DNA from: Pseudomonadota bacterium | GTDB taxonomy: Bacteria > Pseudomonadota > Gammaproteobacteria > Burkholderiales > Gallionellaceae | NCBI GenBank assembly: GCA_021782365.1 | Contig: JAJXVB010000009.1 | Span: 1 to 64,000, forward strand | Length of the DNA: 64,000 nt | Direction: 5' to 3' | Shown here: piece after piece, positions 38,191 to 57,117 of the stretch | How positions within the stretch are numbered: the stretch's first letter is position 1 | Layout of the letters: each line of letters starts with the position of its first letter | The notes under the pieces: generated by a model | What the model was told of the DNA's origin: nothing | Seen by the model: the letters and a program-made list of their open reading frames with translations, nothing else | The model's database searches: none | Program-made: the position numbers and the translations under genes

Positions 38191-38391
38191 CTATTTTTTG
38201 CCCGTTCGCTTTTGCACGACATCCCAGGCCATGTAAGCCATCACGCAGAACACAAGCGTGCATACGATGAAGATGATGCGTTGTTCGGAGTCATTGCTGA
38301 CCAGCCCCCCGATAAACATGTGCACCGAATATCCCGCGATGAGAAGCGCGCCGATACCCGCCACCAGAAAGATCAGTATCTCGACCATCAT
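38191..38391 (-). CDS. Small membrane protein (66 aa, 2 TM)
   Basis: MMVEILIFLVAGIGALLIAGYSVHMFIGGLVSNDSEQRIIFIVCTLVFCVMAYMAWDVVQKRTGKK; overlaps upstream gene. Confidence 0.7.
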   Translation of the reverse strand: MMVEILIFLVAGIGALLIAGYSVHMFIGGLVSNDSEQRIIFIVCTLVFCVMAYMAWDVVQKRTGKK

Positions 38392-39848
38392 GTCCCCGGT
38401 TTCCTGGCTGCAGGCTGAACAGACGGTTGAACGGGTTCGTGCTTGACTTCGACGATCACGCCGCCTTTTCTGAGATCCACCGTTTCGACCCTTCCCGCCT
38501 GCATCGTCGCGAGATTGCGCGACAGCGAACTGTTGGCCGGATTATGCGGATCGAAAAGCAGATAATCGACCCCTTTCAGCATCCCATATAACGCATCGGC
38601 ATCGCGCGCCTCGGGTGGCAAAGGGAGCGCATCGCAGCGGCAACCCAGCATGGTCAACGCCGGCCATTGGCTCGCGACGCGCAACTTGTGAGCGGGAGCT
38701 TGCCCGTGCGCATCCTTCAGCATGTCTTCGGCGTTCTCGGAGAACGCGCGTATCAGCGCATCCCGAGGCGCAAGTTCGCCAAGCTGCGTGGACTGATAAT
38801 CCGCCTTGTCATTCAGCATGAAGGAAGTCGAGACGACGAAGACCAGAACCAGCGCGATGCCGCGCTGCGACCAGAATCCTCCCTGCGCATCGGATCTCAG
38901 GAGCACAGGAAATCCCCAGTAGAGCACGACAGCCAGCGCGGCCACGGCAAAGGCCCCGTCACCATTGAAAAGCCCGATGACAAGGGATGCAAGCAACACC
39001 CGTCCCAGCAAATCCGTCCACATCCTGCCCGACTGGCTGATCGCGACCCAAAGCAACAGGACCAGCATGCCCACGCCGGAAATCCAGCCGCCCATACCCA
39101 GATCCCCGCCGTCTGAAGGCCCCAGCAGCATGCCTGACGCAGCGCGCACCGGATTTGCGAACCAGGATATGTGGCGCCATCCCATCGTCAGAATCAGCGC
39201 GATCACCATTGCGAAGATGACTCCGGCAAACACATAGTTGCGGCGCTCTCGATCCAAGGGATTCTTGTGCCACGACCAGAGCAGCATCAATGGATAGGCG
39301 AGCCCCATGGGATGCAGGGTTGCCGAGATGAGCGCAAGGAATATCTGCCCGAAATACACCCCTCCCAGGGCCTGCCTGGATTCACGGTAAATCTTGTCAG
39401 TCCAGGCCCCCATCGCAAAAACAAAAAGCAGGAAAGGCCCGACCGACATCGTATCGATCTGATGAAGCACCAATGGAGAGATCAAGAGCAGTCCGGTCGC
39501 AATCAGCGACGACTCCTCCTGATCGCTGACCTGCTTGCGCCAACTGTGCAGACCCCATGCGACGATCGCCATCACGATGATGGTCGTCACTTTCGCAGCG
39601 ATCAGGTTTCCTGTCCAAAGCGCACCTGCTGGAATGAAGAACAGCGTGCGAAAGTCGGGCAATCCCATGGTCACGATGGAGCTGACCACACCATCGGCGA
39701 CAGACCAGACCAGAAGCAGGGCATGAGCCCCACCCTCATCCAGTCCGAAGTTCGACTTGTTGAGAAGCAGGATCACTGCAGCGCCCCAGACCGCGAGCGC
39801 GAAGTAGGCCAGATATTCCTTGGGAATGCGCGATAACAAGTTATTCAT
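38388..39848 (-). CDS. Polytopic membrane protein of unknown function
   Basis: 486 aa, many TM segments and soluble C-terminus; arrangement reminiscent of GT-C-type membrane proteins (weak). Confidence 0.75.
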   Translation of the reverse strand: MNNLLSRIPKEYLAYFALAVWGAAVILLLNKSNFGLDEGGAHALLLVWSVADGVVSSIVTMGLPDFRTLFFIPAGALWTGNLIAAKVTTIIVMAIVAWGLHSWRKQVSDQEESSLIATGLLLISPLVLHQIDTMSVGPFLLFVFAMGAWTDKIYRESRQALGGVYFGQIFLALISATLHPMGLAYPLMLLWSWHKNPLDRERRNYVFAGVIFAMVIALILTMGWRHISWFANPVRAASGMLLGPSDGGDLGMGGWISGVGMLVLLLWVAISQSGRMWTDLLGRVLLASLVIGLFNGDGAFAVAALAVVLYWGFPVLLRSDAQGGFWSQRGIALVLVFVVSTSFMLNDKADYQSTQLGELAPRDALIRAFSENAEDMLKDAHGQAPAHKLRVASQWPALTMLGCRCDALPLPPEARDADALYGMLKGVDYLLFDPHNPANSSLSRNLATMQAGRVETVDLRKGGVIVEVKHEPVQPSVQPAARKPGT

Positions 39849-39920
39849 ACTCGATCCGTCGTAGCTAGTTAACCTTGAGATTGTACCGCACTGTCGTTGA
39901 GATCTGTCTGAAAATCGGCG

Positions 39921-40505
39921 CTACTGGTTGATCGAGAGCAGCAGCCTGATGTCCTGAGCCATTTGATCCGCCGGCTCTTCATAGCGCGACAGCAGCAAGG
40001 GCTTTCCTCTGGTTCCCAGAAGAAAGATGCCATCGCTGTGATCCAGCGTGTAGCCGCCGTGCTTGTCAAACTGCTTCTGGTAATTCACGCCGAAGGATTT
40101 AGCGGCCTTTTGCGTTGCCTCCGCATCGCCATAAAGCCCGAGAAAGGACGGATTGAAAGAAGTCACATATTTCGCGAGCAGCGCGGGCTTGTCCCTTTCG
40201 GGGTCCAGCGTGACAAATATCACCTGCACCCTTTTCGCATCCGGACCCAGGATGCGCATCACCTGTGCCAGGTCGGCAAGCGTGGTAGGACAGACATCCG
40301 GGCAATGGGTATAGCCGAAGAAAAGCACGGCCACCTTGCCCCTGAAATCCAGCAGATTGCGCGGTTTTCCGTTGAAGTCGAAGAGCGTGAAGTCCGCATG
40401 CGTATGCTGCCAGGTCACGTCTATCGCATGATAGGGCGATGGCAGATCGCGCTGGCCGCACGCAGACAGCAGCAGAAGCAATGCGGCGCACAAAATGCTT
40501 TTCAT
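39921..40505 (-). CDS. SCO1/SenC/PrrC-family copper-binding protein
   Basis: Lipoprotein signal; FFGYTHCPDVCPTTLADLAQVM CxxxC motif, later LDHSDGIFLL His. Confidence 0.94.
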   Translation of the reverse strand: MKSILCAALLLLLSACGQRDLPSPYHAIDVTWQHTHADFTLFDFNGKPRNLLDFRGKVAVLFFGYTHCPDVCPTTLADLAQVMRILGPDAKRVQVIFVTLDPERDKPALLAKYVTSFNPSFLGLYGDAEATQKAAKSFGVNYQKQFDKHGGYTLDHSDGIFLLGTRGKPLLLSRYEEPADQMAQDIRLLLSINQ

Positions 40506-40512
40506 CGAAGGC

Positions 40513-40929
40513 TTACTTGCCTTTCCCGTCGTTCGCATTTGTCTCCTGCTCGGCGTCCTTCTCATTCTTTATCGAGACTTCATTCCTGTGGACCATGTAC
40601 CAGATGAAGGCGCCGGCTGCGCTGATGTAAACCAGGGAGCCCAGAAAGCCCGGATCCTTCACCCAGTCGGTCCACTTGACGACCACGCCCGGCCTCAATC
40701 CCCAGAACGGGAAACTCAATCCCACGCCAACCAGGAACACACTCGCGACGACCGCCCAGAACCAGTAAGGCACCTTGAGCTGGGATTCGGGAATCTTCTC
40801 GACCAGCTCCCAGTCCTCCATGCCGCGCTTATCCAGCCGCTCTTCGTTAGAGTCATAACCGAAGTGGTCCTCGCGCAACTTTCCCCATTGCGACTTTTCC
40901 CCTGACAACTCAAGATTATCCTGATCCAT
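40513..40929 (-). CDS. Two-TM protein, CcoP-N-terminus-like, no heme-c motif
   Basis: 138 aa; VPYWFWAVVASVFLVGVGLSFPFWGLRPG ... LGSLVYISAAGAFIWYMVHRNE; internal ATG at 40929. Confidence 0.6.
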   Translation of the reverse strand: MDQDNLELSGEKSQWGKLREDHFGYDSNEERLDKRGMEDWELVEKIPESQLKVPYWFWAVVASVFLVGVGLSFPFWGLRPGVVVKWTDWVKDPGFLGSLVYISAAGAFIWYMVHRNEVSIKNEKDAEQETNANDGKGK

Positions 40930-40939
40930 CACCGTTCTC

Positions 40940-42283
40940 CTAATCGACAAAATGCTGCAGTTCAAAGCGCCCGACCCAGCCATCGCGCGAATGAACCACG
41001 ACGATGAAGGGATGCAGTCCGTGGGAAAGCGAAGGCGACATCGAGAGAAACACCGATGCTCTCCCAACCGTCGGCAGGCTCACCTTGTTGCTGCTCAGTG
41101 TAAAGCTTCCAGCGGGGAGGCCCTCGACCGAGACTTCCAGTTCCGCAGGGCGATATCGCTTGTTCGCGATCTCGATGCGATAGTCCCGCGCCGACTGGCT
41201 GTGGCCCATCTGCACATATCCCGCGGAAAGATGATAAGGCTGATAAGACCAAAGACCCCAAGCAAACATCGCGATGCCCAGCACTGCAATAGGCAGGGTC
41301 CAGCGCATCCTGGACAACAGCGCGATCGAATTGTCCCTGAACTTGCCCAGCCTGGTTTTCGCGCGCTCCCCGAATTCGAAGCGCAGGAGACCGCTCTTGC
41401 CCTTTTTCGCATGGAGCGCATTGCACGCATCGATGCAGTCGCCGCAGTTGATGCAGCTGTCGTAGATCATGGTCTTGCGCGGATCGAGCCCGATGAAGCA
41501 GGTGGTCACGCAGAAATTGCACTTCTCGCACTCTGCCGAACGGCTCTCGTCATAGAGCACATGCAGCGTCTCCTTGGTCTTGAAGGAATGCTGCCAAACT
41601 CTGTAGACGCAGGCGAAACGGCACCAGAAATGCCTGAGCACCGAGACATCCAGCAGGATGATCAGCACCCAGACGAAATAGATCCAGTGAAGCGAACCGG
41701 CAAGCCTGGGATCATTCCTGAACAGGATGAAGGAAAGAACGACATCCGGCGGATAGAAATAGAGCAATGGCAACAGCGCGAACAGCATCGATGCGCCGAC
41801 GAGGGACAAGGCAAGCAGGGTCCAGTTGAGCGCGTTGTTCTTGGCCGCGGCGACCTTGAGCGCCTCGCCGTTCAGGCTGATCTCGGCGCGTTTCCCCAGA
41901 AGCTTCCTCGTCATGTGATTTGCCCACTCAGCCATCGAGTTCTGGGGACATGCCCATCCACAAAACACCGTGCCAGCAGTCGAATAGAGTGCAACCAGGA
42001 GGGTTGCCAGGGTGATCCACAGACCCGTTATCAGAAAGAAGTCGGAAAACCATACCTGCCAGCCCAAGACCACCAGCGCACCGTTTTCGGGATCTATCCT
42101 GAATAGCCCGGAAACCGGGATCAACACCAGCGCTATCAGGAAGGCGATCTGAACGGCGCGCCGCTTCCAGCGAAAATTGTTCATACCCTTTTTGGATCCG
42201 CCGCTGACGACCTTGACCGGTATCGCGGAAAGCGTCTTGTTCATCGCTGATGACATGTTTACCTTCGTTCTAGCCGCATTCAT
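40940..42283 (-). CDS. ccoG: Cytochrome c oxidase accessory protein CcoG/RdxA/FixG
   Basis: Membrane ferredoxin; CGWACPQNSMAEW, CEKCNFCVTTCFIGLDPR, CINCGDCIDACNALHAKKGK. Confidence 0.95.
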   Translation of the reverse strand: MNAARTKVNMSSAMNKTLSAIPVKVVSGGSKKGMNNFRWKRRAVQIAFLIALVLIPVSGLFRIDPENGALVVLGWQVWFSDFFLITGLWITLATLLVALYSTAGTVFCGWACPQNSMAEWANHMTRKLLGKRAEISLNGEALKVAAAKNNALNWTLLALSLVGASMLFALLPLLYFYPPDVVLSFILFRNDPRLAGSLHWIYFVWVLIILLDVSVLRHFWCRFACVYRVWQHSFKTKETLHVLYDESRSAECEKCNFCVTTCFIGLDPRKTMIYDSCINCGDCIDACNALHAKKGKSGLLRFEFGERAKTRLGKFRDNSIALLSRMRWTLPIAVLGIAMFAWGLWSYQPYHLSAGYVQMGHSQSARDYRIEIANKRYRPAELEVSVEGLPAGSFTLSSNKVSLPTVGRASVFLSMSPSLSHGLHPFIVVVHSRDGWVGRFELQHFVD

Positions 42284-44859
42284 AAGGCGCTTTTCGCCTC
42301 GTAATCCAGAGGCGCTACCGCGAGGAGCCGCAAACGGTAGCGCTCCGCATCCTCCATGTTGCCCGCCGCCTTCTCAAGATGCCAAAGGGCGCGCAGCGCA
42401 CCCGCATGGTCTGGGGATATCTTGAGCACGCGCTGCAGCGCCTCGCGTTCGCTCAAGCCGTGCTCGCGCGCCTGTATCAGCGACTGCATCATACTATCAG
42501 CTAGCGCATTGGCAATCCAGTGGTCGCGCGGATTCGCCTGGTATGCCATCCATATCATCTGGACCGATTTGGACTCATCCCCCCTGAGGGCCAATATCCA
42601 GGCCTCATTCGTCAGCGTGGCGGCCATATAGGCGCGGCCGAACGCCTCCCTGTCCTGCTTCTGAACCCCCAGAATATCCGCTGCAGCATCGACATCCGGG
42701 TGGCGCATCATCAGCCAGGAGAGCAGATTCGCGAGGTTGACGCTCCCATCGTAACGCGCTTTTGGCAGGCTGTATTCGATATAAGGCACCCATTCATCCT
42801 GAACCTTCCCAGCGCTTTGAGGCACCGCCCCCCAGTAGCGCCCGAGCCAGGTCCATATCCCCTCGTTTCCTGTCGCGGGGCCATCGTCTTTCATCCTCAT
42901 AAGATTGCGCTTCATCGCATCGGCGATGGGAAGAGGCTTTTGGGGCCCGACGAGCGCGAGATGCATGCCGTCCATGAACATCTGCGCATCCGGGAATGCC
43001 TCTCTGAAGCTCCTGAGCACGACAGACAGCGAGCCGATGTCGAACTGGTTCAACGCAAGCCACTGAACAAAGATCCCGTCCGGATTCAGATGGCGCCTGG
43101 CGCGCTCGAACTGTTGCACGGAAAGAAGAGAACCCATGCCAGCGAGATCCGGATGGAAAAGATCCCCTATGATCACGTCGTATTTCCTGTCAGTCGCATT
43201 CAGGTAGTGCCTCGCATCATCCCGGTACACCTTAGCCTGATCGACTGCACCCTTGTTCACCTCGGAAAACCAATGGCTGGCGGCATAGATCGCACCCTGG
43301 GAAAGCTCCACCGCGCTTCTGCTGAGATCCGGGAATGGCAGAGAGCCGCCCATCGAAATTCCCGTCCCCAGCCCCAGGAAAAGCACGCTCCTGGGATCCG
43401 GATGCAGAAGCAATGCAAGCCTTGCCTGATCCATTTGTATCTCTACAGCGCCGGGATCGCTGGACGCGTCCATGCGCTGAAGATCCGTGAGCAATATGCG
43501 CTGCCCGTCCTTGTGACGAACAACATGAGTCAAAGACACGGCATCCTCGTACAGGTAAAGATCGCGGCTTCCGCCCTCTGCGATCGGCAGCAATTCATGC
43601 ACGGGCGGCATGTTGCGCAAAGGCCAAGCAAAAAGCAAAAGACATGCGAAACCCAGCCAGCCCCGCCTCGAATTCAATCCCGCGAGTCCAAATCCTGCGA
43701 TCGAAAGGGCTGCGATAACGACCAGCGCAGCCGTGCCAAAGTTCGGTATGATCACGAGACAACCAAGCAATGCTCCGATGCCCCCTCCCAGACTGTTCGC
43801 GCCATAAAGCCATACCGCATTGGCATCCTTATGGCGCCAGGCCAGCAATGGAAGCCACGCGCCCAGAACCAGCGTGACAGGAAGCGTGAAAAGCGCGGCT
43901 ATCGCGGCCTGTGCGCCGACTGCGCCAAAGAAGGAATTGAACTGGCTACTCTCTACCCAGGATGATGTGGCAGGCAAAAACCAGAGACCCAGCAGCGCGC
44001 CGCCTCCCGCGACGACAGGCAGAATGCCCGCAATCCTGCGCGGCGCGATCAGGCTGCCCAATGCGATGCCGGTCAGGAAAACGGCCAGTATCACGCCCAG
44101 CACGTATTCGGTTCTCAGCATGATCATGCCATAAAGCCTCACCCAACCCACCTCTAGCATCAGGCTGCCCGCACCTATTCCCGCATACAGAAGAAGTGCA
44201 GACATCGGCGGACGCGGCAACGCCTTTTGGTCCTCGCCTGTCTTTGCGTGCCTCGAGAAATACAGCGCGGTGATGCCCACCAGCAAGCCTAGAAATGCAG
44301 CGACCCTGACCGACCCCGTCCATCCCAGAACAGGAAGCCCCCAAAGAGGGAACAGCGCCCCCAATGCGCCGCCTATGGTATTCAGTCCATACAGTTTCCC
44401 GAGGGTAAGCGGCGTGCGATCGATTGCCTTCAATACCAGCGTAAAACCGACGCCCATCGCAAAGGCCGGAATCATGAGCAGGCTGGTCGCTTCTAGCGCC
44501 TGCAGAAGATACCACTGAATGAGACCCAGTCTTCCCGATGCGTCGTCGAGCCAGATGCTCACATGCCTCATTAAACCGGGCAGCGCCAGCGCGTATAGCG
44601 CAATGGCCACCTCTATGATGGCGAAAAAGGCAAGCGGCTTTCTGCCTTTGTATTTCACGCCCGCCATGCTTCCGCCGCCCAAACCCATCATGAACGCAGT
44701 GACGGTCAACACGACGCCGAAGATGCTGACGCCAAACTGCATGGACAGCATGCGCGACCAGAGCACTTCATAGGCGAGGCTGGTGAATCCGGATAATGCA
44801 TAGAGCAGGGCCACGCCCCACCACCATGGCTTAGCGCTGTTGCCGGAAATTGAACTCAC
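42280..44859 (-). CDS. Membrane-fused spermidine synthase-like protein
   Basis: 859 aa; MFS-like membrane part (SGFTSLAYEVLWSRML), spermidine synthase-like domain (VLFLGLGTGISMGG), TPR-like C-terminus. Confidence 0.85.
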   Translation of the reverse strand: MSSISGNSAKPWWWGVALLYALSGFTSLAYEVLWSRMLSMQFGVSIFGVVLTVTAFMMGLGGGSMAGVKYKGRKPLAFFAIIEVAIALYALALPGLMRHVSIWLDDASGRLGLIQWYLLQALEATSLLMIPAFAMGVGFTLVLKAIDRTPLTLGKLYGLNTIGGALGALFPLWGLPVLGWTGSVRVAAFLGLLVGITALYFSRHAKTGEDQKALPRPPMSALLLYAGIGAGSLMLEVGWVRLYGMIMLRTEYVLGVILAVFLTGIALGSLIAPRRIAGILPVVAGGGALLGLWFLPATSSWVESSQFNSFFGAVGAQAAIAALFTLPVTLVLGAWLPLLAWRHKDANAVWLYGANSLGGGIGALLGCLVIIPNFGTAALVVIAALSIAGFGLAGLNSRRGWLGFACLLLFAWPLRNMPPVHELLPIAEGGSRDLYLYEDAVSLTHVVRHKDGQRILLTDLQRMDASSDPGAVEIQMDQARLALLLHPDPRSVLFLGLGTGISMGGSLPFPDLSRSAVELSQGAIYAASHWFSEVNKGAVDQAKVYRDDARHYLNATDRKYDVIIGDLFHPDLAGMGSLLSVQQFERARRHLNPDGIFVQWLALNQFDIGSLSVVLRSFREAFPDAQMFMDGMHLALVGPQKPLPIADAMKRNLMRMKDDGPATGNEGIWTWLGRYWGAVPQSAGKVQDEWVPYIEYSLPKARYDGSVNLANLLSWLMMRHPDVDAAADILGVQKQDREAFGRAYMAATLTNEAWILALRGDESKSVQMIWMAYQANPRDHWIANALADSMMQSLIQAREHGLSEREALQRVLKISPDHAGALRALWHLEKAAGNMEDAERYRLRLLAVAPLDYEAKSAL

Positions 44860-44914
44860 TCGTTTAGAACCATGTCAGGCTGTTCGGTCGCGAAGCAGCG
44901 ACCGCGCACACCTG

Positions 44915-45310
44915 TTAGAAGGGATAGAACCAGACCAGGCCCACGATCGCATGAGCGATCGCCATGGACACGCTAAGTCCCGCAAAAAGCATGTGAGACA
45001 CAAAGACCTGCTTGCCATACAAACCCATCGCAAGACCCAAGCCGCCGGTGATCAGGACCAGGATGAACAGCACGACTCCCATCAGGAACATGATCTGCTG
45101 CTTTTCCTTTTGCGGGATAGATTTCTCACGCACATCTTCCTGGTGCTGTTTGTTGAAGGCCTGCAGTATTTGCGCGCTGTCCTCCCCGTTCGAGACTGTC
45201 TCTGCATGGGCAAGGTTCATGGAAGAACACATCGCGATTAGCAGCACTCCGAAGAAACGCAGTGAAAACGATTTGATAAAGGTATTGAGAATGCGTGACA
45301 TGATTTTCAT
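44915..45310 (-). CDS. Small membrane protein, unknown
   Basis: 131 aa with signal-like N-terminus and two C-terminal TM segments; within the cluster. Confidence 0.65.
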   Translation of the reverse strand: MKIMSRILNTFIKSFSLRFFGVLLIAMCSSMNLAHAETVSNGEDSAQILQAFNKQHQEDVREKSIPQKEKQQIMFLMGVVLFILVLITGGLGLAMGLYGKQVFVSHMLFAGLSVSMAIAHAIVGLVWFYPF

Positions 45311-45573
45311 TCTGATATGGGTTTACGGGCAATATCGGATGCGGGGCTGCTGGATTTCTTCATCGCAACACGCCAGGCCAGAACGGCCATCAGCACGAAG
45401 GGAACGAAGACGCCCATCAAAAGAAAGATGAAGATATACCAGGGCGTGGCGATCGTCACATGGGTAAATCGGTAGCTGTCGACCGCGGCATGCGCATTTG
45501 CGGCAAACAGCAAAGACATCATCAGCCCGGATTTGATCGACTGTCTATACATCATGCACCTCCGATGATCCAT
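45307..45573 (-). CDS. Small membrane protein, unknown
   Basis: 88 aa; signal-like N-terminus, one TM (WYIFIFLLMGVFVPFVLMAVLAW); overlaps the next gene. Confidence 0.6.
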   Translation of the reverse strand: MDHRRCMMYRQSIKSGLMMSLLFAANAHAAVDSYRFTHVTIATPWYIFIFLLMGVFVPFVLMAVLAWRVAMKKSSSPASDIARKPISE

Positions 45574-45580
45574 TTAAGTT

Positions 45581-48230: not shown

Positions 48231-48291
48231 ACAAATGCGCCCTATTACGACAGCGCATTTGTTTATTCGTTCTGCCGGGACTAGCCCGGCA
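48231..48291. other. Two consecutive hairpins between oxidase structural and accessory genes
   Basis: ACAAATGCGC...GCGCATTTGT (48231-48262) and TGCCGGG-ACTAG-CCCGGCA (48273-48291). Confidence 0.6.
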
Positions 48292-48299
48292 ATCGAATA

Positions 48300-48407: not shown

Positions 48408-48464
48408 TTGATTCTCCAGATAAGTTGGGCGGTTCCAGCCTATGCCGAAACCGCTCCAGTTTGA

Positions 48465-49109
48465 TTAATGAACGTTATGCCTAGGCTGCCATGAAGATGG
48501 TGGCAGACGCTTGATCATCACGATCACCATGGTGAAGAAGTAGGACAGATAGAAGATGTCTATCGTGTAGCCTTTGTCCCACCAAGGTTGCTTGCGCTCG
48601 ATCGTGCCATCGGGTTTCAGGTTACCCTGGAAGTTAGCAAGAACGACGTGATCCCCAACGACTTCATATTCGCCCAGATCGACGCCGCTTGCCATCAAGG
48701 CCTCCATCTGCGGCTTGATGATGCGAAGATCGTTCATGGACAGCGGATGACGCTCGAGCATGTCTTCCATGGAACGGCCATCGAGCGTGCCGGTTCCCTT
48801 GTTCAACTGCTCGATCTTCTTCATCGCTTCTTCGTCGTTGGTGATTGCCTTGACTTCTGGCAGATCCATCGACTTGATGTAGCCCGCATAAAGCGAAGCT
48901 GTCGGACGCTGACCCCAGAGAGGGAAGGTAACCGCAAAAGCAGTCAGCACTGTCAATACAACGAGCAGCACGACCGGCATCGGCATGCGATTGTTGTCTT
49001 CCGTGATGCCACCCAGGTTTTCCTTCTCCCAAAGAACCTTGTCCTTTTCGTTTGTCGCCGCGTCGACCATCGTGATCAGCGGTTTTTCAAAATTCCAAGC
49101 CATATTCAT
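48465..49109 (-). CDS. CcoP-N-terminus-like membrane protein lacking heme-c domains
   Basis: 214 aa; LGGITEDNNRMPMPVVLLVVLTVLTAFAVTFPLWGQRPT resembles CcoP DGI..DNxxPxxW+TM; no CxxCH; second TM at C-terminus. Confidence 0.6.
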   Translation of the reverse strand: MNMAWNFEKPLITMVDAATNEKDKVLWEKENLGGITEDNNRMPMPVVLLVVLTVLTAFAVTFPLWGQRPTASLYAGYIKSMDLPEVKAITNDEEAMKKIEQLNKGTGTLDGRSMEDMLERHPLSMNDLRIIKPQMEALMASGVDLGEYEVVGDHVVLANFQGNLKPDGTIERKQPWWDKGYTIDIFYLSYFFTMVIVMIKRLPPSSWQPRHNVH

Positions 49110-49116
49110 ACCCCCC

Positions 49117-50073
49117 TTATTTCAGGCTCAACATAAAGTCGATCAGACTACGGATTTCGGAGTTTTTAGCATAGCTAGGCACTTCAGGCGGCGTTACGCG
49201 CTTGCCTTCGCGATACTCGATGTACTCCTGTCTCCACTTCGGATAATCGATCTTGTTGCCGTTTGCATCCTTCTCTCCCCACAGGTAATCGAAGCGAGGC
49301 ATGATGGAATGCGGCTGCACCAGACGAGGATTGAAGAAGTGCATCATCATCCATTCCCTGGAGGAATTGCGCGATCCGACGTGCAACAGGTCAGGCGCCT
49401 TTCTGTCCGAACCGAAAGCGGTGGGAGACTCTCCGTTGAAGTCACCCTGCATAGGTGGCGCACCGAAAACCTGCCAGTCCTGTGTTTCTTCAGGAAGCAG
49501 GGTGTGGCACCACCAGCAGCCTTCACGAACGAACATCGTCTTGCCAGCACCCGCATGAGAAACATCCTCATCCTTGGCAACACGCAAGACGTCGTCAGGC
49601 GTCCAGCCCTTTGTTGTCGACAGGTCCTCGATATAGCTCACTTCCTTGCCTTGGTATACGGCCTTGTTCAAGGCGAATACGGCACCCGCTTCCTTGCGCG
49701 CATCTTCGATGTGACCCTGCTGAACGCTCAGCTCCTCAACACCGGTTCCGAGTATCCTTGGATGCAGGATACCGGCCGGGAAAGGCGCGCCCGCAGGATA
49801 GACGAACACCGTCTGCTGCTGAGCCAGAGGCTGACCCGTTTTCGGATCGTTCTTCAGGTTCACGACGATCGGCTTGTTCTTGCCCTTCAGGAACGGGTCA
49901 TCGAGGTTGAAGCCCGTTTCGTGTCCGACGGTCAGCTGCTTTGCCAGAGCGACATCGGTCGACGCAGTCGATGCGATGTTGATGCTTGGAAAGAACAGCG
50001 TGATCGTCATCGATCCGCTCAGCGCGAGGCCGAAAATCCTCGCGCCGATCTTATACTCTCTAAATCCAGCCAT
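49117..50073 (-). CDS. CcoO-like monoheme cytochrome c subunit
   Basis: FVREGCWWCHTLLP...GSDRKAPDLLHVGSRNSSREWMMMHFFNPRLVQPHSIMPRFDYLWG matches CcoO architecture. Confidence 0.92.
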   Translation of the reverse strand: MAGFREYKIGARIFGLALSGSMTITLFFPSINIASTASTDVALAKQLTVGHETGFNLDDPFLKGKNKPIVVNLKNDPKTGQPLAQQQTVFVYPAGAPFPAGILHPRILGTGVEELSVQQGHIEDARKEAGAVFALNKAVYQGKEVSYIEDLSTTKGWTPDDVLRVAKDEDVSHAGAGKTMFVREGCWWCHTLLPEETQDWQVFGAPPMQGDFNGESPTAFGSDRKAPDLLHVGSRNSSREWMMMHFFNPRLVQPHSIMPRFDYLWGEKDANGNKIDYPKWRQEYIEYREGKRVTPPEVPSYAKNSEIRSLIDFMLSLK

Positions 50074-50096
50074 GCTTGATCTCCCTATTTATTATA

Positions 50097-51503
50097 TTAA
50101 CGCTCGTATTGCAGCTCATGAGGCATGCGGCCCGCCGGGATCACGGTGCCTTTTCTGGCAGTCATCCACATGTTGTAGAGCCACATCGTATTGCCGGTGA
50201 ACACCAGCGTACCACCGAGCCAACGCGCGATCATATAGGGATGCTCAGCAATGACCACATCGATGTAGGGAACTTCGTAAATCTTGCCTGCGCCCTGGAT
50301 CAGACCCGCGATCGTCATCGAGACCCAATAGGTCGTGAAACCGACGAGCAGAAGCCAGAAGTGCATGTTTGCGAGCTTCAGGGAATAAAGCTTGCGGTTC
50401 ATCATGGTTTGCAGACCGAGATACACGGCAGCAGCCTCGAGGAATGTTGAGAATCCAAGCAGCGCGAGGTGGGCGTGTGCAACGATCCAGCCCGTACCGT
50501 GGATGTACCAGTTGATCGCGCGAGTCTGCTGAAAACCACCCTGCATGTTCAAGGGAATCGCCATCAGACAGCCAGTGATCGTGAAACGAACCTCGATGTT
50601 CTCGACGAACATGTGCCACTTGCCCTTCATCGTCAGCATGATGTTGGAGACGAAAGCGATCGCAGGGACCAGGATCAGCACGCCTTCAACCGATGCGAAA
50701 GACTTCAGCCACTCGGGCAAAGGCGCCGACATCAGATGGTGTGCAGCGGGTGTCGAATAGAACACCACCACGGACCAGAAATGCAGGTGACCGATACGGT
50801 GAGAGTACAGCGGATTTCCTGTCACCTTAGGAATCGTGTAGTAGGCAATCGCAGCCGCAACAGGCGTGATCCAAAGACCCAGCACGTTGTGCGCAAACCA
50901 CCATGTCAGATAGGCTTCAGTCAAACCTGTCAGATGGAAGAACTCAGGAGAGTTGCCCACCAGGAACACGATGATGACCATGAAGGTCGCCGCAGCAAAG
51001 AACCAGTTCGTGGTGTAGATACCCTGAGTGCGACGGTTCAGTATCGTCATCCAAACGTTTACACCCAGGGGGATGAAAACGAAGCTAGCGAGATACAAAT
51101 CCACTGGCCACGGGAAGTCGGAGTATTCACGTCCGGATGTAATGCCAGCCCAAAGAACTGTCAGGCCAACCAGCAAGCCTATGTTCCACAGCATGCAGTT
51201 CCAGATGCCCAGCTTCTCGGACCAAAGCTTGTTGTTTCCAAGCGCCGGCGTGATGTACATCATGGCCATTGCAAACGCCATCGATATCCATCCGAAGATC
51301 ACCGCCATCACATGCACCTGGCGCATGTGACCGAACGAAAAGTATATCTCACCGGTCACAAAGTCGGGAAATGCGAGCTTGGCCGCATTGAAAGACCCCA
51401 ACCCGGTTCCGATGACAAACCAAATAATTGCTGAAAAACCAAAGAATACCGCCGATGCTCCTGATGGAATATCCTCATTCTTGGCCATTAGATATTTAAA
51501 CAT
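50097..51503 (-). CDS. CcoN-like heme-copper oxidase subunit I (cbb3/C-family)
   Basis: GHMRQVHVMAVIFGW, TWWFAHNVLGLWIT, HFWSVVVFYSTPAAHHLM (HH plus Tyr 6 residues before), WIVAHAHLALLGF (HxH). Confidence 0.95.
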   Translation of the reverse strand: MFKYLMAKNEDIPSGASAVFFGFSAIIWFVIGTGLGSFNAAKLAFPDFVTGEIYFSFGHMRQVHVMAVIFGWISMAFAMAMMYITPALGNNKLWSEKLGIWNCMLWNIGLLVGLTVLWAGITSGREYSDFPWPVDLYLASFVFIPLGVNVWMTILNRRTQGIYTTNWFFAAATFMVIIVFLVGNSPEFFHLTGLTEAYLTWWFAHNVLGLWITPVAAAIAYYTIPKVTGNPLYSHRIGHLHFWSVVVFYSTPAAHHLMSAPLPEWLKSFASVEGVLILVPAIAFVSNIMLTMKGKWHMFVENIEVRFTITGCLMAIPLNMQGGFQQTRAINWYIHGTGWIVAHAHLALLGFSTFLEAAAVYLGLQTMMNRKLYSLKLANMHFWLLLVGFTTYWVSMTIAGLIQGAGKIYEVPYIDVVIAEHPYMIARWLGGTLVFTGNTMWLYNMWMTARKGTVIPAGRMPHELQYER

Positions 51504-51531
51504 GCGCTACCCCCTTCATTCAAAAGAACAC

Positions 51532-51642
51532 TCAGTGTTGATTGTTACTGTTTTTGTTTTCATGCGGTATCAATATATACCACGACAGCAACATGCTGGA
51601 AAACGCAAGCAGCACACCCAATGAACCAGCAATCAAAGCCAT
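51532..51642 (-). CDS. 36-aa single-TM protein upstream of the CcoN-like gene
   Basis: MALIAGSLGVLLAFSSMLLSWYILIPHENKNSNNQH*; GGGGGAT upstream of ATG; not in ORF track. Confidence 0.6.
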   Translation of the reverse strand: MALIAGSLGVLLAFSSMLLSWYILIPHENKNSNNQH

Positions 51643-51682
51643 AGCCTATCCCCCATTTAAGATAAAAACCAACAAGCTGAAT

Positions 51683-51964
51683 TTAAGCAGCAGCCTGTTC
51701 CAATTTTTCGTGACGACCCAGCGCAACGATCATGATCATGCAGAAAGCAAACCCGAATACGAGCATCGCCCAGTCGATAAAGCCGGTAAACGTGTGCGGA
51801 TCGTAGGCCGTTCCGTTGATGCCGCCCCAATTGTCAAAGCCACCGCGCCCCATCAGACACATCAGCGTTGCGCCGAACACGCTGCCGTTCCCCATCCCTG
51901 TCAGCATGCCGCCGATCAGGATCAGCCAAAAAGATCGAAGTTTTACAGGCTTTTTCGTACTCAT
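51683..51964 (-). CDS. Two-TM membrane protein, first gene of oxidase operon
   Basis: 93 aa MSTKKPVKLRSFWLILIGGMLTGMGNGSVFGATLMCLMGRGG...; GGGGGG region before the ATG at 51964. Confidence 0.7.
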   Translation of the reverse strand: MSTKKPVKLRSFWLILIGGMLTGMGNGSVFGATLMCLMGRGGFDNWGGINGTAYDPHTFTGFIDWAMLVFGFAFCMIMIVALGRHEKLEQAAA

Positions 51965-51995
51965 GTACCCCCCCATGCTATTAATTATAAAAACC

Positions 51996-52037
51996 AAGGC
52001 AAGACTTGTTCACACACCCTATCCGTCAACTTGCCTT
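51996..52037. promoter_or_regulatory. Inverted repeat AAGGCAAG...CTTGCCTT upstream of the oxidase operon
   Basis: 8-bp perfect arms (51996-52003 / 52030-52037) just upstream of a TATAAT on the minus strand (51984-51989). Confidence 0.4.
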
Positions 52038-52168
52038 ACCCGTCCATACCGTTTGCGCATCCAAGCCGTACCACTCACTTTGGGCCAGCCTAAACAGTGG
52101 CGGATGTTACTGATTGCGAGTTTGGCTTGTCAAGGGAAGTTTCCTCCCAAGCCCTGTACCGCCTGCCG

Positions 52169-52190
52169 GAGAACAGTGTGCACTGTTCTC
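52169..52190. promoter_or_regulatory. Perfect 10-bp-arm palindrome GAGAACAGTG-TG-CACTGTTCTC
   Basis: Read directly; in the ~500-bp divergent intergenic region; no T-tract follows. Confidence 0.55.
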
Positions 52191-52367
52191 GGAATCACCC
52201 CATTTGACTATGCATTTCAGGCATTACAACCCACCCCAATCAGGAAGATTAATTATATTTAATGTCCATCTTTTTAATTTTCCCCACCTGCCCTCAACTC
52301 GCATCGCTCAAGAAAATCACCGCCCACGACCGCGATATGCCCGCACTCTAATATCCCCTTCGCTTAT

Positions 52368-52396
52368 TTGACATCCTCAAATATTTACGCTTATTA
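52368..52396 (+). promoter_or_regulatory. Sigma70-like promoter for the 72-aa gene
   Basis: TTGACA, 17-nt spacer, TTATTA; about 70 nt upstream of the ATG at 52466. Confidence 0.5.
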
Positions 52397-52465
52397 TCCA
52401 ATCGTGGTTTTTCACAAGCGCCACCGACAGTTTACTTTTCATAACGTTTTTCACGGGGTAGAAAA

Positions 52466-52684
52466 ATGGATTCAAATAACATACACGCAGAAAAAGAAGC
52501 CAAACTGAAAGAACTGCAAGCTCAAGAAGAGAAGCTGAAGGAATTGCAGGCCGACCTGGCAAAGCTGAATGCAAAGGTAAAAAATCACGAGGAACTTTCT
52601 CCTGAGGATACCAAATTTGTCAGCGAACTCGGCTGGATTAGCGCGCTTTCCGTTACGATCGCCGCCATCGCTGCCAGCATGTAA
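52466..52684 (+). CDS. Small coiled-coil protein with hydrophobic C-terminus
   Basis: 72 aa EKEAKLKELQAQEEKLKELQADLAKLNAKV...WISALSVTIAAIAASM; promoter upstream and hairpin downstream. Confidence 0.65.
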   Translation: MDSNNIHAEKEAKLKELQAQEEKLKELQADLAKLNAKVKNHEELSPEDTKFVSELGWISALSVTIAAIAASM

Positions 52685-52692
52685 TTCAATTC

Positions 52693-52721
52693 ACGCTTAA
52701 AGATTAAAAAATTTTAAGCGT
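52693..52721 (+). terminator. Possible terminator/hairpin
   Basis: ACGCTTAAA gattaaaaaat TTTAAGCGT, 9-bp perfect arms just after the stop at 52684; weak T-tract. Confidence 0.45.
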
Positions 52722-52833
52722 TTGACAGGCGGGCTTTCATTGCGCCTGAATGCTGGAGTCGTTATACTTAGTCCGAAGAAGTTGCGCTCGCCGCTCTTCG
52801 AGAAGATTCATATATATTTACCGGGGGAATAAC

Positions 52834-52944
52834 ATGCCAATCGCACTTTTCATACCAATCGGAATTTTTCTTGTAGGCATCATCATCGCTGTACAACTCG
52901 GTGGAATAGGCGTTGATCTGCTGGCCGAAAACAGCAGGAAATAA
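52834..52944 (+). CDS. 36-aa single-TM protein
   Basis: MPIALFIPIGIFLVGIIIAVQLGGIGVDLLAENSRK*, preceded by ccgggggaataac. Confidence 0.55.
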   Translation: MPIALFIPIGIFLVGIIIAVQLGGIGVDLLAENSRK

Positions 52945-53053
52945 TCAGCAATTCATTCGCGATTACATGAATCAAAGTGTCCGGCATTTGCCGGGCATTT
53001 TTTTCCGGCCTGCCATTGGCTGAATTATCCAAGCCGCTACAAGACACCCCCTC

Positions 53054-53575
53054 ATGAGCACTGCCTCGACGCATCAACCTCTGTTGAAATTTCTTCTGTT
53101 TTCCGCATTCTCCTTCTTTGTCGGCACTGTGCACGGCATGCTTCAGGTGATGCCCCCGATACGAGCCTGGCTGGACTCCATAGGCAGCCCTTACGGCGGA
53201 CCTGGGCACATGATAGATCCGCTAGCCCACGCTCACATGAACCTCGTAGGCGGTGTAGTGCTTCTCGCGATGGGCGTCACCTATTATCTGGTGCCCATAT
53301 TTACCTCCAGGAAGCTTTATTCGGTAAAACTTCTCAACCATACTTTCTGGTGGGTTAGCATAGGCGTATACAGCTTTTACATCATACAGATGGTATTTGG
53401 AATCTGGGAAGGGATGCTGCTGCACTCAGATCCCCTTAGAATTCCCACCGTGCACCGTTTTTATGGCCCCCTGATTGCCATCTCGGGAACTGCGATGCTG
53501 GTGGGCTTCACAACTTACCTTGCCAACCTTCTGCTCACCGTATTCAGGGGACAGCCTAACCCTTCGAAAGGCTGA
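53054..53575 (+). CDS. Short CcoN-like (COG3278-type) membrane protein, C-terminal half only
   Basis: 173 aa; DPLAHAHMNLVGGVVLLAMGVTYYLVPIFTSRKLYSVKLLNHTFWWVSIGVYSFYI aligns with the HAHLALLG...RKLYSLKLANMHFW part of the full-length CcoN. Confidence 0.8.
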   Translation: MSTASTHQPLLKFLLFSAFSFFVGTVHGMLQVMPPIRAWLDSIGSPYGGPGHMIDPLAHAHMNLVGGVVLLAMGVTYYLVPIFTSRKLYSVKLLNHTFWWVSIGVYSFYIIQMVFGIWEGMLLHSDPLRIPTVHRFYGPLIAISGTAMLVGFTTYLANLLLTVFRGQPNPSKG

Positions 53576-53936
53576 CCGGGAATTCCAGTATTTTCTCGGC
53601 ATTACCCTGCAGGATTTTAACTCTTATGACCGCCTTCTTTTCGTCGCCAAGATCGACGGCCCTGCGGTACACCCCGATGAATCCATCCTGGATTGCCTGC
53701 ACCCACGGCATTGCATCATCTCCTCGCAGGTAGATCGTCAGATCCGACGCAGGCCTGCCTCTTGGCCCCGTCGCGATGACAACCACATCCGACATGCCGG
53801 CAAGAGGCGGATTGGGATGCGTCTCTATCCTGACATCCATGTCTTTCCAGTGTTGCGAAGGTATGGATATGCCATTACCGGCTGAATCGCAGGCCGTAAT
53901 CATCCAGAGCAGACAAAACAGTAATATTTTTTTCAT
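53556..53936 (-). CDS. FixH/YtkA-like lipoprotein
   Basis: Lipobox MITAC; DVRIETHPNPPLAGMSDVVVIATGPRGRPASDLTIYLRGDD...GFIGVYRRAVDLGD. Confidence 0.55.
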   Translation of the reverse strand: MKKILLFCLLWMITACDSAGNGISIPSQHWKDMDVRIETHPNPPLAGMSDVVVIATGPRGRPASDLTIYLRGDDAMPWVQAIQDGFIGVYRRAVDLGDEKKAVIRVKILQGNAEKILEFPVSLSKG

Positions 53937-53988
53937 ATGGATGCGGCCGCACAGCGAATGATCAGCGCACAGCGCTCATGTTTGCGCA

Positions 53989-54453
53989 TTATTTCGGCTG
54001 GCATTGATTCTTGAGTGTATCGCGAGCTGAAACAAACTTGTCTTCGTTTGGAAACTGCCCCTTGTGGAATACAAATTGCAGGAGCTTCCCGGCTCCATCC
54101 TGCCCTGACAGGCCGAATGATTTCCCCGCATAGTCTGGAAAATACCTGATATTTTTCAAAAGATCGATCTGGATCCCATTCTTCTGCAAGACCCCCACGC
54201 TTTGGCCGGCGATCAGCAACGCCACCGGCGCGCTTGGCAGCAGCATCAGCCTGGTCTTGAATACCCTGTTGAATCCCGCAATGAAGAAAAAGCAGGTAAG
54301 AAAAAAGAGCAGGTAGCTCAGGTTATGCTCGCTTCCATACCAGAGGCTCGCCGATATCGATCCAAGCGCCACCACGGTCGGAACATAGAGCAACAAGTCC
54401 CACATCATTCCCTTGCGATCTGCAACCAGATCAAATCTCAACGCCTCTCTCAT
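53989..54453 (-). CDS. Membrane protein of unknown function
   Basis: 154 aa, two N-terminal TM segments; co-directional with neighbours. Confidence 0.6.
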   Translation of the reverse strand: MREALRFDLVADRKGMMWDLLLYVPTVVALGSISASLWYGSEHNLSYLLFFLTCFFFIAGFNRVFKTRLMLLPSAPVALLIAGQSVGVLQKNGIQIDLLKNIRYFPDYAGKSFGLSGQDGAGKLLQFVFHKGQFPNEDKFVSARDTLKNQCQPK

Positions 54454-54467
54454 GGATTTGCTCGCTG

Positions 54468-54956
54468 CTAAAGGACTACCTTGATCGCATCATCCATCTC
54501 ACCGGTAAGCATCCGGCCCGCCTGCTCGAAGCGGACTATGCCGTTTTTGTCGATGATGAAGGTCCAGGGATCGCCCATCACGTTGTAGGCCCTGTACGCC
54601 TGCGGATTTTCATATTGATCTATGTGTATGAAGATGATTCTGTCCTGATACTTCTCGAGCATGCCCTGCAGCATTTGAAGCTGCTGATCGCAGTTCGTGC
54701 AATGTCCGGGAGTTGCAAATTCAAGCACGATAGGCTTACCGGTTTGAAGCGCCTTGTCGATCGAATACTGGTACATCCTGGCATCAGGCTGCCTGTATGT
54801 CGTCACCTTGCTCAGGTTTCCGCCGACATCCGCCAGCGTCTTGGTTGGCAGACTGGGCGCTTTCGACCCGACATTGAATCCCGAAGACAGCCGTTGTTCG
54901 CCGCAGCCCGCAGTCAGGCCCAGCATCAGAATTATGACTGCCCACGCCTGTTTCAT
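54468..54956 (-). CDS. Thioredoxin-fold lipoprotein
   Basis: Lipobox LTAGC; PIVLEFATPGHCTNCDQQLQMLQGMLEKY CxxC; ATGA overlap with the upstream gene. Confidence 0.85.
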   Translation of the reverse strand: MKQAWAVIILMLGLTAGCGEQRLSSGFNVGSKAPSLPTKTLADVGGNLSKVTTYRQPDARMYQYSIDKALQTGKPIVLEFATPGHCTNCDQQLQMLQGMLEKYQDRIIFIHIDQYENPQAYRAYNVMGDPWTFIIDKNGIVRFEQAGRMLTGEMDDAIKVVL

Positions 54957-55471
54957 TTCGGCTTTTGCCATCCGCACTTTGTCGTCTTGTAAAGGTTGTA
55001 ACCCCAGATGATGTTGGCCGTGAGAACCAGAATGCCGAATATGCCAACCAACGCCATGAAGCTGTTGACCAATTTTTCCGCATCAGGCCCCTCCATCAGC
55101 CCCCCTGCAAGGCCCGCCATCAGGAAGAATACGACCATCCCCAGGAGGCCGAAGTTATGCATCCAGAAATGCACCTTGACCAGCCTGAGACTGTAAATCT
55201 GTCTCATCGACACTGTAGGCACGACATAATATAAAGATGCGAATATCGCCATCTCGACCCAGCCCAGGAGATTGATATGGCCGTGAGCCAGCGTGATCAA
55301 GCGTCCGTGCGCGCTGTAATCAACGAAATGCCGGTATGCCGGGATTCCTCCCATGATCGCACCCCATGAAAAGCCGACAATGCTGTATATGATGCAGGCA
55401 TAAACGAACCAAAGTATGTATTTTCTGTATTCTGCCGCCTCTGCCGGTGTATGTTCAATGCTTTGCGTCAT
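54953..55471 (-). CDS. Short CcoN-like (COG3278-type) membrane protein, second copy
   Basis: 172 aa; GRLITLAHGHINLLGWVEMAIFASLYYVVPTVSMRQIYSLRLVKVHFWMHNFGLLGM. Confidence 0.8.
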   Translation of the reverse strand: MTQSIEHTPAEAAEYRKYILWFVYACIIYSIVGFSWGAIMGGIPAYRHFVDYSAHGRLITLAHGHINLLGWVEMAIFASLYYVVPTVSMRQIYSLRLVKVHFWMHNFGLLGMVVFFLMAGLAGGLMEGPDAEKLVNSFMALVGIFGILVLTANIIWGYNLYKTTKCGWQKPK

Positions 55472-56030
55472 TCTTTTCCTCTTTGCCTTTCATCCAGTCA
55501 CGTATATCGGTAAAGCTCGTCTTCCATCCTGCGGGGGTCCACATCTGAACCATCGCATCGACGAATCCTGATTGCTCCTCAGGCGGTTCAAACGAAGACG
55601 AAGATCCCTGGTCGGCTTTCAATTCGGAGAGGAAGACCGCCATGGAATGAAGCTCTGAATCGGGAAGCTCGGAAACGTATGCCGCATCTTTGGGAGGCGC
55701 GCCATGATCGAGCGTTTTTGCGCCATAGGTATTTTCTGGGTTCTTTAGAAAATTGTAGAAATACACCACATCATGCTTGGAACCCAAGCCGTCCAGGCTT
55801 ACGCCCATGCTGGTTCCGCTGCCCACCGCATGATGACATTCGTAACACCCTCTCTGCTGGTAGATGCCGTAACCCTTCTCGCCTTCCGCTGTAAATTCGT
55901 AATGCGTCAAAATCGGAAAGAGTGGCTTTTTTGAGTGATGCCTGGTCGACTCAAGCGAAAAAAAGCTGATTATCGTGATGACAAAAAGCAGGCCAATAAT
56001 GCCAAAAAGAATTTTCTCGCCGAGTTTCAT
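55455..56030 (-). CDS. Membrane-anchored monoheme c-type cytochrome (paralog of 47079-47561)
   Basis: MKLGEKILFGIIGLLFVITIISFF anchor; YGIYQQRGCYECHHAV CxxCH. Confidence 0.88.
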   Translation of the reverse strand: MKLGEKILFGIIGLLFVITIISFFSLESTRHHSKKPLFPILTHYEFTAEGEKGYGIYQQRGCYECHHAVGSGTSMGVSLDGLGSKHDVVYFYNFLKNPENTYGAKTLDHGAPPKDAAYVSELPDSELHSMAVFLSELKADQGSSSSFEPPEEQSGFVDAMVQMWTPAGWKTSFTDIRDWMKGKEEKNDAKH

Positions 56031-56096
56031 CTATCCCAACCCCGCCCCTGAATTCATGGGGCTTCAAAACAACTACAAAATCGTTTCACCAAAAAC

Positions 56097-56130
56097 AAAT
56101 TCCAGCACCCATCTCTGGGTGCTGGAATTT
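56097..56130 (-). terminator. Rho-independent terminator downstream of the diheme cytochrome gene
   Basis: Perfect 15-bp stem AAATTCCAGCACCCA/TGGGTGCTGGAATTT, loop TCTC; followed on minus strand by TTTGTTTTTGG-like sequence. Confidence 0.85.
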
Positions 56131-56140
56131 CGAAAGAATA

Positions 56141-56941
56141 TTACTTGGTGATCTTGACGTTCTTCATGACTGTTTCATTGTCGATCTCGTATCCATCGCC
56201 AGGCGTGCTGTCTTCTGCCTGGGAGAGATAGGTCGCCGCATTGTTGATATCGTCATCGCTCAGATTCTTTGCGATTGCGCGCATCTGGCCCAGCGGATCA
56301 TTGACACGTCCGTTGGCTGGATCGGCCTTGGGATCATTTGCTCCGTTGCGCCAGTCATGCAGCTGGTTGACGATATAGACAAACTTCTGCTGAGCGATCT
56401 TGGGATAGACGGGATCGGAACCTCGGCCATCGAAACCGTGGCATGTCTGGCAGGCAGAAACCTTGCTGCCGTAACGAACCAGTATCTTGCCCTTGTAGGC
56501 CTCGCCGACCGGTTGACCGGCCGTTTTCAACGCAGCCAGATCGGACAGATCCGCCTTGCTGGGCTTGGGCAAAGAATTCACATATGCCGCCAAGTCGCGC
56601 TTTTCCTGCTCGGTAAGCGATTTCGCGAAGCCATTCATGGCCGCCCCCAGACCCTGGGGCGTACGCTTGTCTTCCGCAAAATTGGTCAACTGCTTGACCA
56701 CATATACGTATCCGATATTGGCCAGACGGGGAGTACCCATATCGTCATTTCCCATCGCTTTTTCGCCATGGCATGAACTACAAGCCGGCACACTGCCATC
56801 CGCCTTGCCGTTTGTAAAGATGTTCTTACCGTTTGCTATATTTGCCGTGACCGGCGCGCCCTCTGCAAAAGTAGCGCCCGAAAAAGCCAGCATGGTAGCG
56901 GCCCCCCAACACACCATTGCCAATTTGGATATTCTAAGCAT
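56141..56941 (-). CDS. Diheme cytochrome c4-type protein
   Basis: Signal peptide; CSSCHG and CQTCHG motifs in tandem cytochrome c domains; start MLRISK at 56941. Confidence 0.92.
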   Translation of the reverse strand: MLRISKLAMVCWGAATMLAFSGATFAEGAPVTANIANGKNIFTNGKADGSVPACSSCHGEKAMGNDDMGTPRLANIGYVYVVKQLTNFAEDKRTPQGLGAAMNGFAKSLTEQEKRDLAAYVNSLPKPSKADLSDLAALKTAGQPVGEAYKGKILVRYGSKVSACQTCHGFDGRGSDPVYPKIAQQKFVYIVNQLHDWRNGANDPKADPANGRVNDPLGQMRAIAKNLSDDDINNAATYLSQAEDSTPGDGYEIDNETVMKNVKITK

Positions 56942-57012
56942 GCACCCCTCCCCCACTAAAAGTTTAATAATCCGCAAGCAGTGCAGATCAAATCATTCCT
57001 TGATATGGACTA

Positions 57013-57117
57013 TCAGGAACCTTTTTTCATCAAAATAAATGCAGCACTGAACAAAAACCCAAAAATGCATGCATACATGATAAGCACTTGGCTCGTCGTC
57101 ACATCTGGTTCAAGCAT
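57013..57117 (-). CDS. 34-aa single-TM protein upstream of the diheme cytochrome
   Basis: MLEPDVTTSQVLIMYACIFGFLFSAAFILMKKGS*; GGGGAGATGCCAA before ATG. Confidence 0.55.
   Translation of the reverse strand: MLEPDVTTSQVLIMYACIFGFLFSAAFILMKKGS

Follow-up and report, generated by a model that had tools for sequence, protein, structure and literature searches.

A conserved gene module for a predicted C-family oxygen reductase with a dispersed CcoP in Gallionellaceae and other Pseudomonadota

Described systems and the present locus

The reference enzyme for C-family heme-copper oxidases considered here is the canonical cbb3 oxidase (CcoNOQP, Pseudomonas stutzeri, PDB entry 3mk7), and departures from its plan have been described. 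In Ferrovum JA12, a cluster with cbb3 subunits I and II only was reported in 2016, and the co-localized c-type cytochromes were proposed to replace subunit III (PMC4725956). Sideroxydans has two cbb3 clusters, proximal and distal, with different sets of subunits and high expression of both (PMC8788666), and both forms are also reported for the Gallionellaceae (PMC10734462) and the Zetaproteobacteria (PMC7029218). Nitrotoga, an aerobic nitrite oxidizer, is predicted to have a cbb3 oxidase (PMC6050957). Here, we describe a C-family heme-copper oxidase gene module from a member of the Gallionellaceae. Reading of open reading frames and Pfam domains placed its ∼25 genes, nearly all on the minus strand, at positions 38191 to 57231 of a 64,000-nucleotide stretch of DNA, called the window below (assembly GCA_021782365.1, contig JAJXVB010000009.1, positions 1 to 64,000). 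Judged from sequence, we give a probability of roughly 0.8 to the reading that the cluster encodes one C-family terminal oxygen reductase with a dispersed CcoP.

With the canonical cbb3 oxidase, the module shares the CcoN ligands, the His-Tyr cross-link pair, a monoheme CcoO, the CcoP anchor motif in a protein that we call PN214, and CcoG-like and weak CcoS-like factors. It differs in that CcoN identity is only 30%, a diheme CcoP and the CcoI marker domain are absent, Y237, S240, Y317, and E323 are replaced, and ∼20 further conserved genes are present. The cytochrome c-dependent nitric oxide (NO) reductase (cNOR, NorBC) likewise has a C-family-like core and an anchored monoheme cytochrome c, but the module lacks the NorB glutamate ligand and has the cross-link tyrosine. 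The Ferrovum JA12 cluster is similar in having CcoN and CcoO without subunit III, and the module described here is found in F. myxofaciens P3G. A heme-less CcoP N-terminal protein, short CcoN-like proteins, a protein resembling the formylglycine-generating enzyme (FGE), proton-path changes, and a module that spans classes are not mentioned in the available portion of the JA12 account (PMC4725956).

The host genome (2.53 Mb in 32 contigs, 93.7% complete; the window lies on contig C10) also holds an A-type-looking oxidase subunit I on contig C14 (497 bits) and cytochrome bd as a contig-edge fragment. The closest relatives of the window CcoN (97 to 98%) come from metagenome-assembled genomes (MAGs) labeled Proteobacteria. 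They are followed by Gallionella, Sideroxydans, Nitrotoga, and Ferrovum records and by gammaproteobacterial MAGs, some of them labeled Chromatiaceae. Throughout, synteny counts refer to 80 loci, CcoN residue counts to 89 sequences, and the class-level survey to 399 genomes of the phylum.

The catalytic subunit

The genes at 50097 to 51503 and 49117 to 50073 are the sole full CcoN/CcoO pair of the genome. In a tree with canonical CcoN proteins (P. stutzeri 3mk7 and the CcoN of four genomes with both types, G007, G010, G012, and G123), the window-type proteins formed one separate clade with support of 100/99 and a branch length of 3.66 changes per site. NCBIfam equivalog cutoffs were not reached for ccoN (225 of 583 bits), ccoO (66 of 201), or ccoG (about 126 of 317). 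The first-pass annotation, made from the letters of the window, had read the protein as CcoN-like with all histidine ligands and the cbb3-type tyrosine position, and the alignment bears this out for the whole clade. All 89 sequences keep the heme b ligand H60, W203, the CuB ligands H207, H257, and H258, H345, H347, G211, and the cross-linked tyrosine Y251, which stands six residues ahead of the HH pair.

The same 89 sequences all show the replacements Y237 to H, S240 to G, Y317 to A, S320 to L, T321 to N, and E323 to Q. The single proton input path of the C family, here called the K-path, has been proposed to involve Y237, S240, H243, and Y317 (P. stutzeri numbering). These four positions read H, G, H, and A in 89/89, and the five canonical sequences keep all four. 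PMC8780969 describes the proton path in more general terms, as leading to the cross-linked tyrosine by way of a small number of polar residues. A third C-family lineage, found in other members of the same order (loci L121 to L123 and L134), retains Y237, S240, and Y317, so the loss of K-path residues is specific to the window-type clade among the sequences compared. That lineage shares the replacement of E323 by Q and an arrangement of CcoN, CcoO, and a monoheme cytochrome with no diheme protein beside CcoN, but it has H243 replaced by G, and L121 to L123 are 32 to 34% identical to the window CcoN. Near the third-lineage loci, the rest of the module's conserved gene set was not detected, apart from Sco-like and Rrf2-like genes.

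The occurrence of the module in Nitrotoga bears on its function. Each of five genomes (N. fabula, LAW, MKT, HW29, and SPKER) holds exactly one full-length heme-copper oxidase, that of the module, together with two short CcoN-like proteins (mini-CcoNs), and cytochrome bd was not found in 4/5. Because this is the sole recognizable terminal oxidase in four genomes of an aerobic nitrite oxidizer, the module enzyme very probably reduces O2, not NO.

CcoO, CcoP, and assembly factors

CcoO had been annotated as having one CxxCH motif; this is CWWCH, the PF02433 match is above the cutoff, and a genome-wide search gave one FixO protein, the cluster's own. No match to FixP_N (PF14715) rose above the cutoff anywhere in the genome, and a diheme CcoP, noted before as missing from the cluster, is thus absent by this cutoff from cluster and genome alike. 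The ten named-locus genomes without a canonical cbb3 oxidase (G001 to G006, G008, G009, G013, and G014) have no canonical CcoP and no PF14715 match at all, and the same survey does detect CcoP adjoining canonical CcoN. The CcoI marker domain PF12156, sought in 17 genomes, is present in 5/5 that also carry the canonical enzyme with CcoP. It is absent genome-wide from 12/12 without canonical cbb3, namely 11 other genomes and the host genome, for which the lack of a CcoI gene in the cluster had already been pointed out. Of the assembly factors first proposed, the CcoG-like and Sco proteins stood, and the CcoS-like protein gave only a subthreshold FixS match (E = 0.02).

What is left of CcoP appears to be PN214, a 214-residue protein encoded next to CcoO. 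FixP_N was matched significantly in 14 of 25 PN214 orthologs; in the survey of genomes, the match was above the cutoff in G095 and borderline in G048. The orthologs have an invariant LGG-x-x-E-x-N followed by conserved N and P, which resembles the DGIxExxNPxP of canonical CcoP. The PN214 of the window contains no CxxCH, and with hhalign neither PN214 nor the 140-residue PN140 matched an alignment of four canonical CcoP sequences. Several CcoP-N-like proteins had been claimed; Pfam supports the 214-residue one, and the 140-residue one is connected only as its paralog by profile comparison. Since PN214 orthologs match FixP_N, the window copy has no CxxCH, and monoheme cytochromes are separately encoded, the CcoP membrane anchor persists without hemes.

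Gene content and conservation of the module

The genes of the module and those that accompany it are given below by position and strand. TM stands for transmembrane, and in gene names the number is part of our label.

38191 to 38391, minus: 66-residue membrane protein that accompanies the module (43/80 loci)
38388 to 39848, minus: 486-residue multi-TM protein that accompanies the module (38/80 loci; no Pfam match)
39921 to 40565, minus: Sco1/SenC copper chaperone (PF02630; rare in other module copies)
40513 to 40929, minus: PN140, PN214 paralog, 140 residues (hhalign probability 92.9, E = 3.6e-7)
40940 to 42283, minus: CcoG/RdxA/FixG-like ferredoxin-type membrane protein (TIGR02745, ∼125 to 126 bits, under the 317-bit equivalog cutoff)
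42280 to 44859, minus: SpeSyn, multi-TM protein fused to a spermidine-synthase-like domain, 859 residues (PF01564; 58/80 loci)
44915 to 45310, minus: TM131, membrane protein with invariant H106 and H120 (synteny, alignment)
45307 to 45573, minus: TM88, small membrane protein (synteny)
45581 to 46633, minus: SUMF1 (FGE-like) protein, TM anchored (PF03781, 199 bits)
46633 to 47082, minus: TM149, module-conserved membrane protein (synteny)
47079 to 47561, minus: cytc160, membrane-anchored monoheme cytochrome c, CKECH (PF00034; invariant C58, C61, H62, and M114)
47558 to 47836, minus: CcoS/FixS-like single-TM protein (PF03597 subthreshold, E = 0.02; best ortholog, E = 0.004; 72/80 loci)
47858 to 48139, minus: TM93, small module-conserved membrane protein (synteny)
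48465 to 49109, minus: PN214, heme-less homolog of the CcoP N terminus, 214 residues (FixP_N PF14715 in orthologs)
49117 to 50073, minus: CcoO-like membrane-anchored monoheme cytochrome c, 318 residues, with a long extension ahead of the heme domain, CWWCH (PF02433, 63 bits; PDB CcoO, E ∼1e-12; 79/80 loci)
50097 to 51503, minus: CcoN-like catalytic subunit, 468 residues (PF00115, 261 bits)
51683 to 51997, minus: TM104, membrane protein upstream of ccoN, start codon uncertain (77/80 loci)
52466 to 52684, plus: 72-residue helical/TM protein, closest relatives only (4 loci)
52750 to 52944, plus: 64-residue TM protein, closest relatives only (3 loci)
53054 to 53575, plus: short CcoN-like protein 1, four helices, HxH kept (PF00115, 43 bits; hhalign to CcoN, probability 95.8)
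53556 to 53936, minus: 126-residue putative lipoprotein, "FixH-like" by position only (16 loci; no Pfam match)
53989 to 54453, minus: TM154, membrane protein (53/80 loci)
54468 to 54977, minus: Trx169, thioredoxin-like lipoprotein with CxxC (PF00578/PF00085; invariant C25, C93, and C96)
54953 to 55471, minus: short CcoN-like protein 2, four helices, invariant H63, H65, H101, and H105 (PF00115, 57 bits)
55455 to 56030, minus: cytc191, membrane-anchored monoheme cytochrome c (PF00034; cytc160 paralog, hhalign probability 99.2)
56141 to 56977, minus: diheme cytochrome c4, likely periplasmic electron donor (PDB 1etp, E = 2e-25)
57013 to 57231, minus: 72-residue TM protein, upstream end of the cluster (8 loci)

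Comparison of gene neighborhoods showed one recurrent order, TM104-CcoN-CcoO-PN214-TM93-CcoS-cytc160-TM149-SUMF1-TM88-TM131-SpeSyn-CcoG-PN140, in most of the 80 loci. A second block, cytochrome c4-cytc191-mini-CcoN-Trx-TM154, usually lies just upstream of the CcoNO block, and the second mini-CcoN sits at either flank of the module. Synteny extends over Gallionella, Sideroxydans, Nitrotoga, Ferrovum, and gammaproteobacterial MAGs to a second class of the phylum. Across the survey, CcoN matches were either 68 to 80% identical (families f39, f59, and f72, of that other class) or ≤34% identical, with a gap between. The three families contributed 8 loci from 7 genomes; within the limits of the contigs, each has its module genes arranged in the same order. 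These genomes may belong to the Zetaproteobacteria, the group for which two cbb3 forms are mentioned above. Because the gene order is kept in most loci and in another class, the cluster is not a chance assembly. A further idea, that this CcoN is more conserved than canonical CcoN, was dropped, as the values of 84 to 87% versus 75 to 79% in three beta/gamma genome pairs were not consistent across classes.

Cytochromes, mini-CcoNs, and other subunits

CxxCH motifs number one each in CcoO, cytc160, and cytc191 and two in cytochrome c4, in agreement with the separate mono- and diheme cytochromes that had been annotated. In cytc160, Met114 is likely the axial heme ligand, judging from the alignment, and a fold search gave a weak match with NorC among the nearest (E = 0.02). 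Its paralog cytc191 has an invariant His109 in the region that corresponds to that methionine, and its heme may thus be bis-His. Cytochrome c4 is a plausible electron donor to the oxidase; chains of this type occur in the P. aeruginosa bc1-cbb3 supercomplex entries 8smr and 8snh.

The two short CcoN-like paralogs of the first-pass annotation both score above the PF00115 cutoff. By hhalign, each shows homology both to CcoN and to the other, and they keep the HxH that in CcoN holds hemes b3 and b. The minus-strand protein, with an AlphaFold2 pLDDT of 87, matches the last third of CcoN (columns 322 to 450 in the profile alignment), and Foldseek found solved cbb3 CcoN chains at E values of ∼2e-5 to 9e-5 with TM-scores of 0.75 to 0.78 over the query. 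We infer heme binding, and the mini-CcoNs probably serve as accessory or electron-transfer subunits that bind heme b.

The two invariant histidines of TM131 fall within its hydrophobic C-terminal stretch with a spacing of 14 residues, as seen in the helices of b-type cytochromes, and one ortholog gave a weak cytochrome b561 match. This protein may bind heme b.

A membrane-anchored FGE-like protein without the expected catalytic cysteines is a regular member of this oxidase cluster. In six sequences, its tail reads STATYHRD...GFRC, with no CHRSYC-type motif, and both copper-site cysteines are missing from the positions that we take, from FGE structures, to be the copper-binding active site. Its nearest solved relatives are FGE, EgtB, PvdO, and PorK, and its relatives GldK and PorK are structural proteins. 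It is probably a structural or assembly subunit.

Several neighboring genes were left out of the module. The Fdx reductase (36198 to 37151) and Rrf2 (37740 to 38189) genes are not conserved with it, and the RNB gene (57310 to 59295) is conserved in the closest relatives only. Genes for kdp potassium transport, with a KdpD-type sensor kinase and a response regulator (28285 to 36146, plus), lie near the 3' end of the cluster and seem unrelated. TonB, TonB-dependent receptor, and ExbB-type genes (59289 to 63538, plus) lie near its upstream end.

Proposed mechanism and alternatives

In the mechanism that we propose, high-potential donors (Fe(II) or nitrite) would feed cytochrome c4, the soluble diheme protein, and the monoheme cytochromes c anchored in the membrane. 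Electrons would then pass from the CcoO heme to heme b and on to b3/CuB, where O2 would be reduced to water. The heme-less CcoP-N protein would retain the anchor and the invariant glutamate just ahead of the first membrane helix. Because three of four proposed K-path residues are replaced, protons would have to take an altered route inward, and pumping may be lower or differently organized. Candidate residues for such a route are H235, H239, H241, T308, and N319 of CcoN and E37 of PN214. A more detailed picture is possible but less probable: CcoP would be split into a heme-less anchor and monoheme cytochromes, another proton path (possibly with no or lower pumping) would suit Fe(II) or nitrite, copper would be delivered without CcoI, and heme b mini-CcoNs would be true subunits of a very large complex.

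Some points weigh against a single oxygen reductase with a dispersed CcoP. The placing of all ∼25 products in one complex comes from synteny only. The cytochrome c4/cytc191/mini-CcoN block, the SpeSyn gene, or the FGE-like gene is detached or missing in single loci, and several compared genomes are drafts, in which gene absence is no proof. The K-path assignment reportedly goes back to Hemp et al. in 2007 and Buschmann et al. in 2010.

A less likely alternative is that the genes encode two complexes, a CcoNO oxidase and a separate membrane module of mini-CcoN, cytc191, Trx, and cytochrome c4. The cytochrome c4-cytc191-mini-CcoN-Trx-TM154 block is apart from the CcoNO block or inverted relative to it in loci L008, L012, L029, L032, and L063 (the last that of F. 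myxofaciens P3G), and the mini-CcoNs have their own HxH pairs. However, both blocks usually share one locus, across two classes, and we know of no activity for any four-helix HxH protein.

That the enzyme is an NO reductase derived from the C family is very improbable. The K-path loss does resemble NO reductases, which are said not to draw cytoplasmic protons by that route, and NorC is among the weak fold matches of cytc160. Yet glycine stands at position 211 in place of the NorB-type glutamate and the cross-linked tyrosine is present, both in 89/89, and a PDB search with CcoN gave 30 bits to NorB versus 212 to CcoN. Moreover, this is the sole heme-copper enzyme (five genomes) and the sole recognizable oxidase (four) of aerobic nitrite oxidizers. 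Equally improbable is a standard cbb3 oxidase with its CcoP and CcoI genes at another site or missing from the draft genomes, as the incomplete host genome and the FixS- and CcoG-like genes would allow, given the lack of a canonical CcoP in the host and ten named-locus genomes in a survey that does detect it beside canonical CcoN, the 30% identity, the separate clade, and the scores below the equivalog cutoffs.

A variant within the C family

The module enzyme is a distinct variant within the C family. We class it so because of its cbb3-like operation combined with no CcoP, no CcoI marker domain, sub-equivalog scores, and an altered proton path. The first-pass view, in which the cluster is no standard ccoNOQP-GHIS operon but encodes a distinct multi-subunit oxidase, is upheld by the clade, the ∼20-gene synteny, and the missing CcoP and CcoI marker; it is not an unknown oxidase, as the missing subunit III was already published for Ferrovum and the proximal and distal cbb3 forms had been told apart. 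The "distal" cbb3 form (a sub-tree of Ducluzeau et al. 2008) occurs in the same host groups, and the present gene set is not described for it in the available portions of PMC8788666, PMC10734462, and PMC7029218. For the rest of the module, the mini-CcoNs, and the proton-path replacements, no description was found in the open-access literature; subscription papers were outside this scope, which limits claims of priority.

Iron and nitrite oxidizers live on small redox spans, and how energy is conserved at their terminal oxidase is an open question. A sole oxidase with neither CcoP nor the CcoI marker domain, and with most proposed K-path residues replaced, offers a natural test of the requirements for proton pumping and assembly in the C family. 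In Nitrotoga, Ferrovum, and many Gallionellaceae, the presence of ccoN does not by itself warrant a standard high-affinity, proton-pumping cbb3 oxidase.

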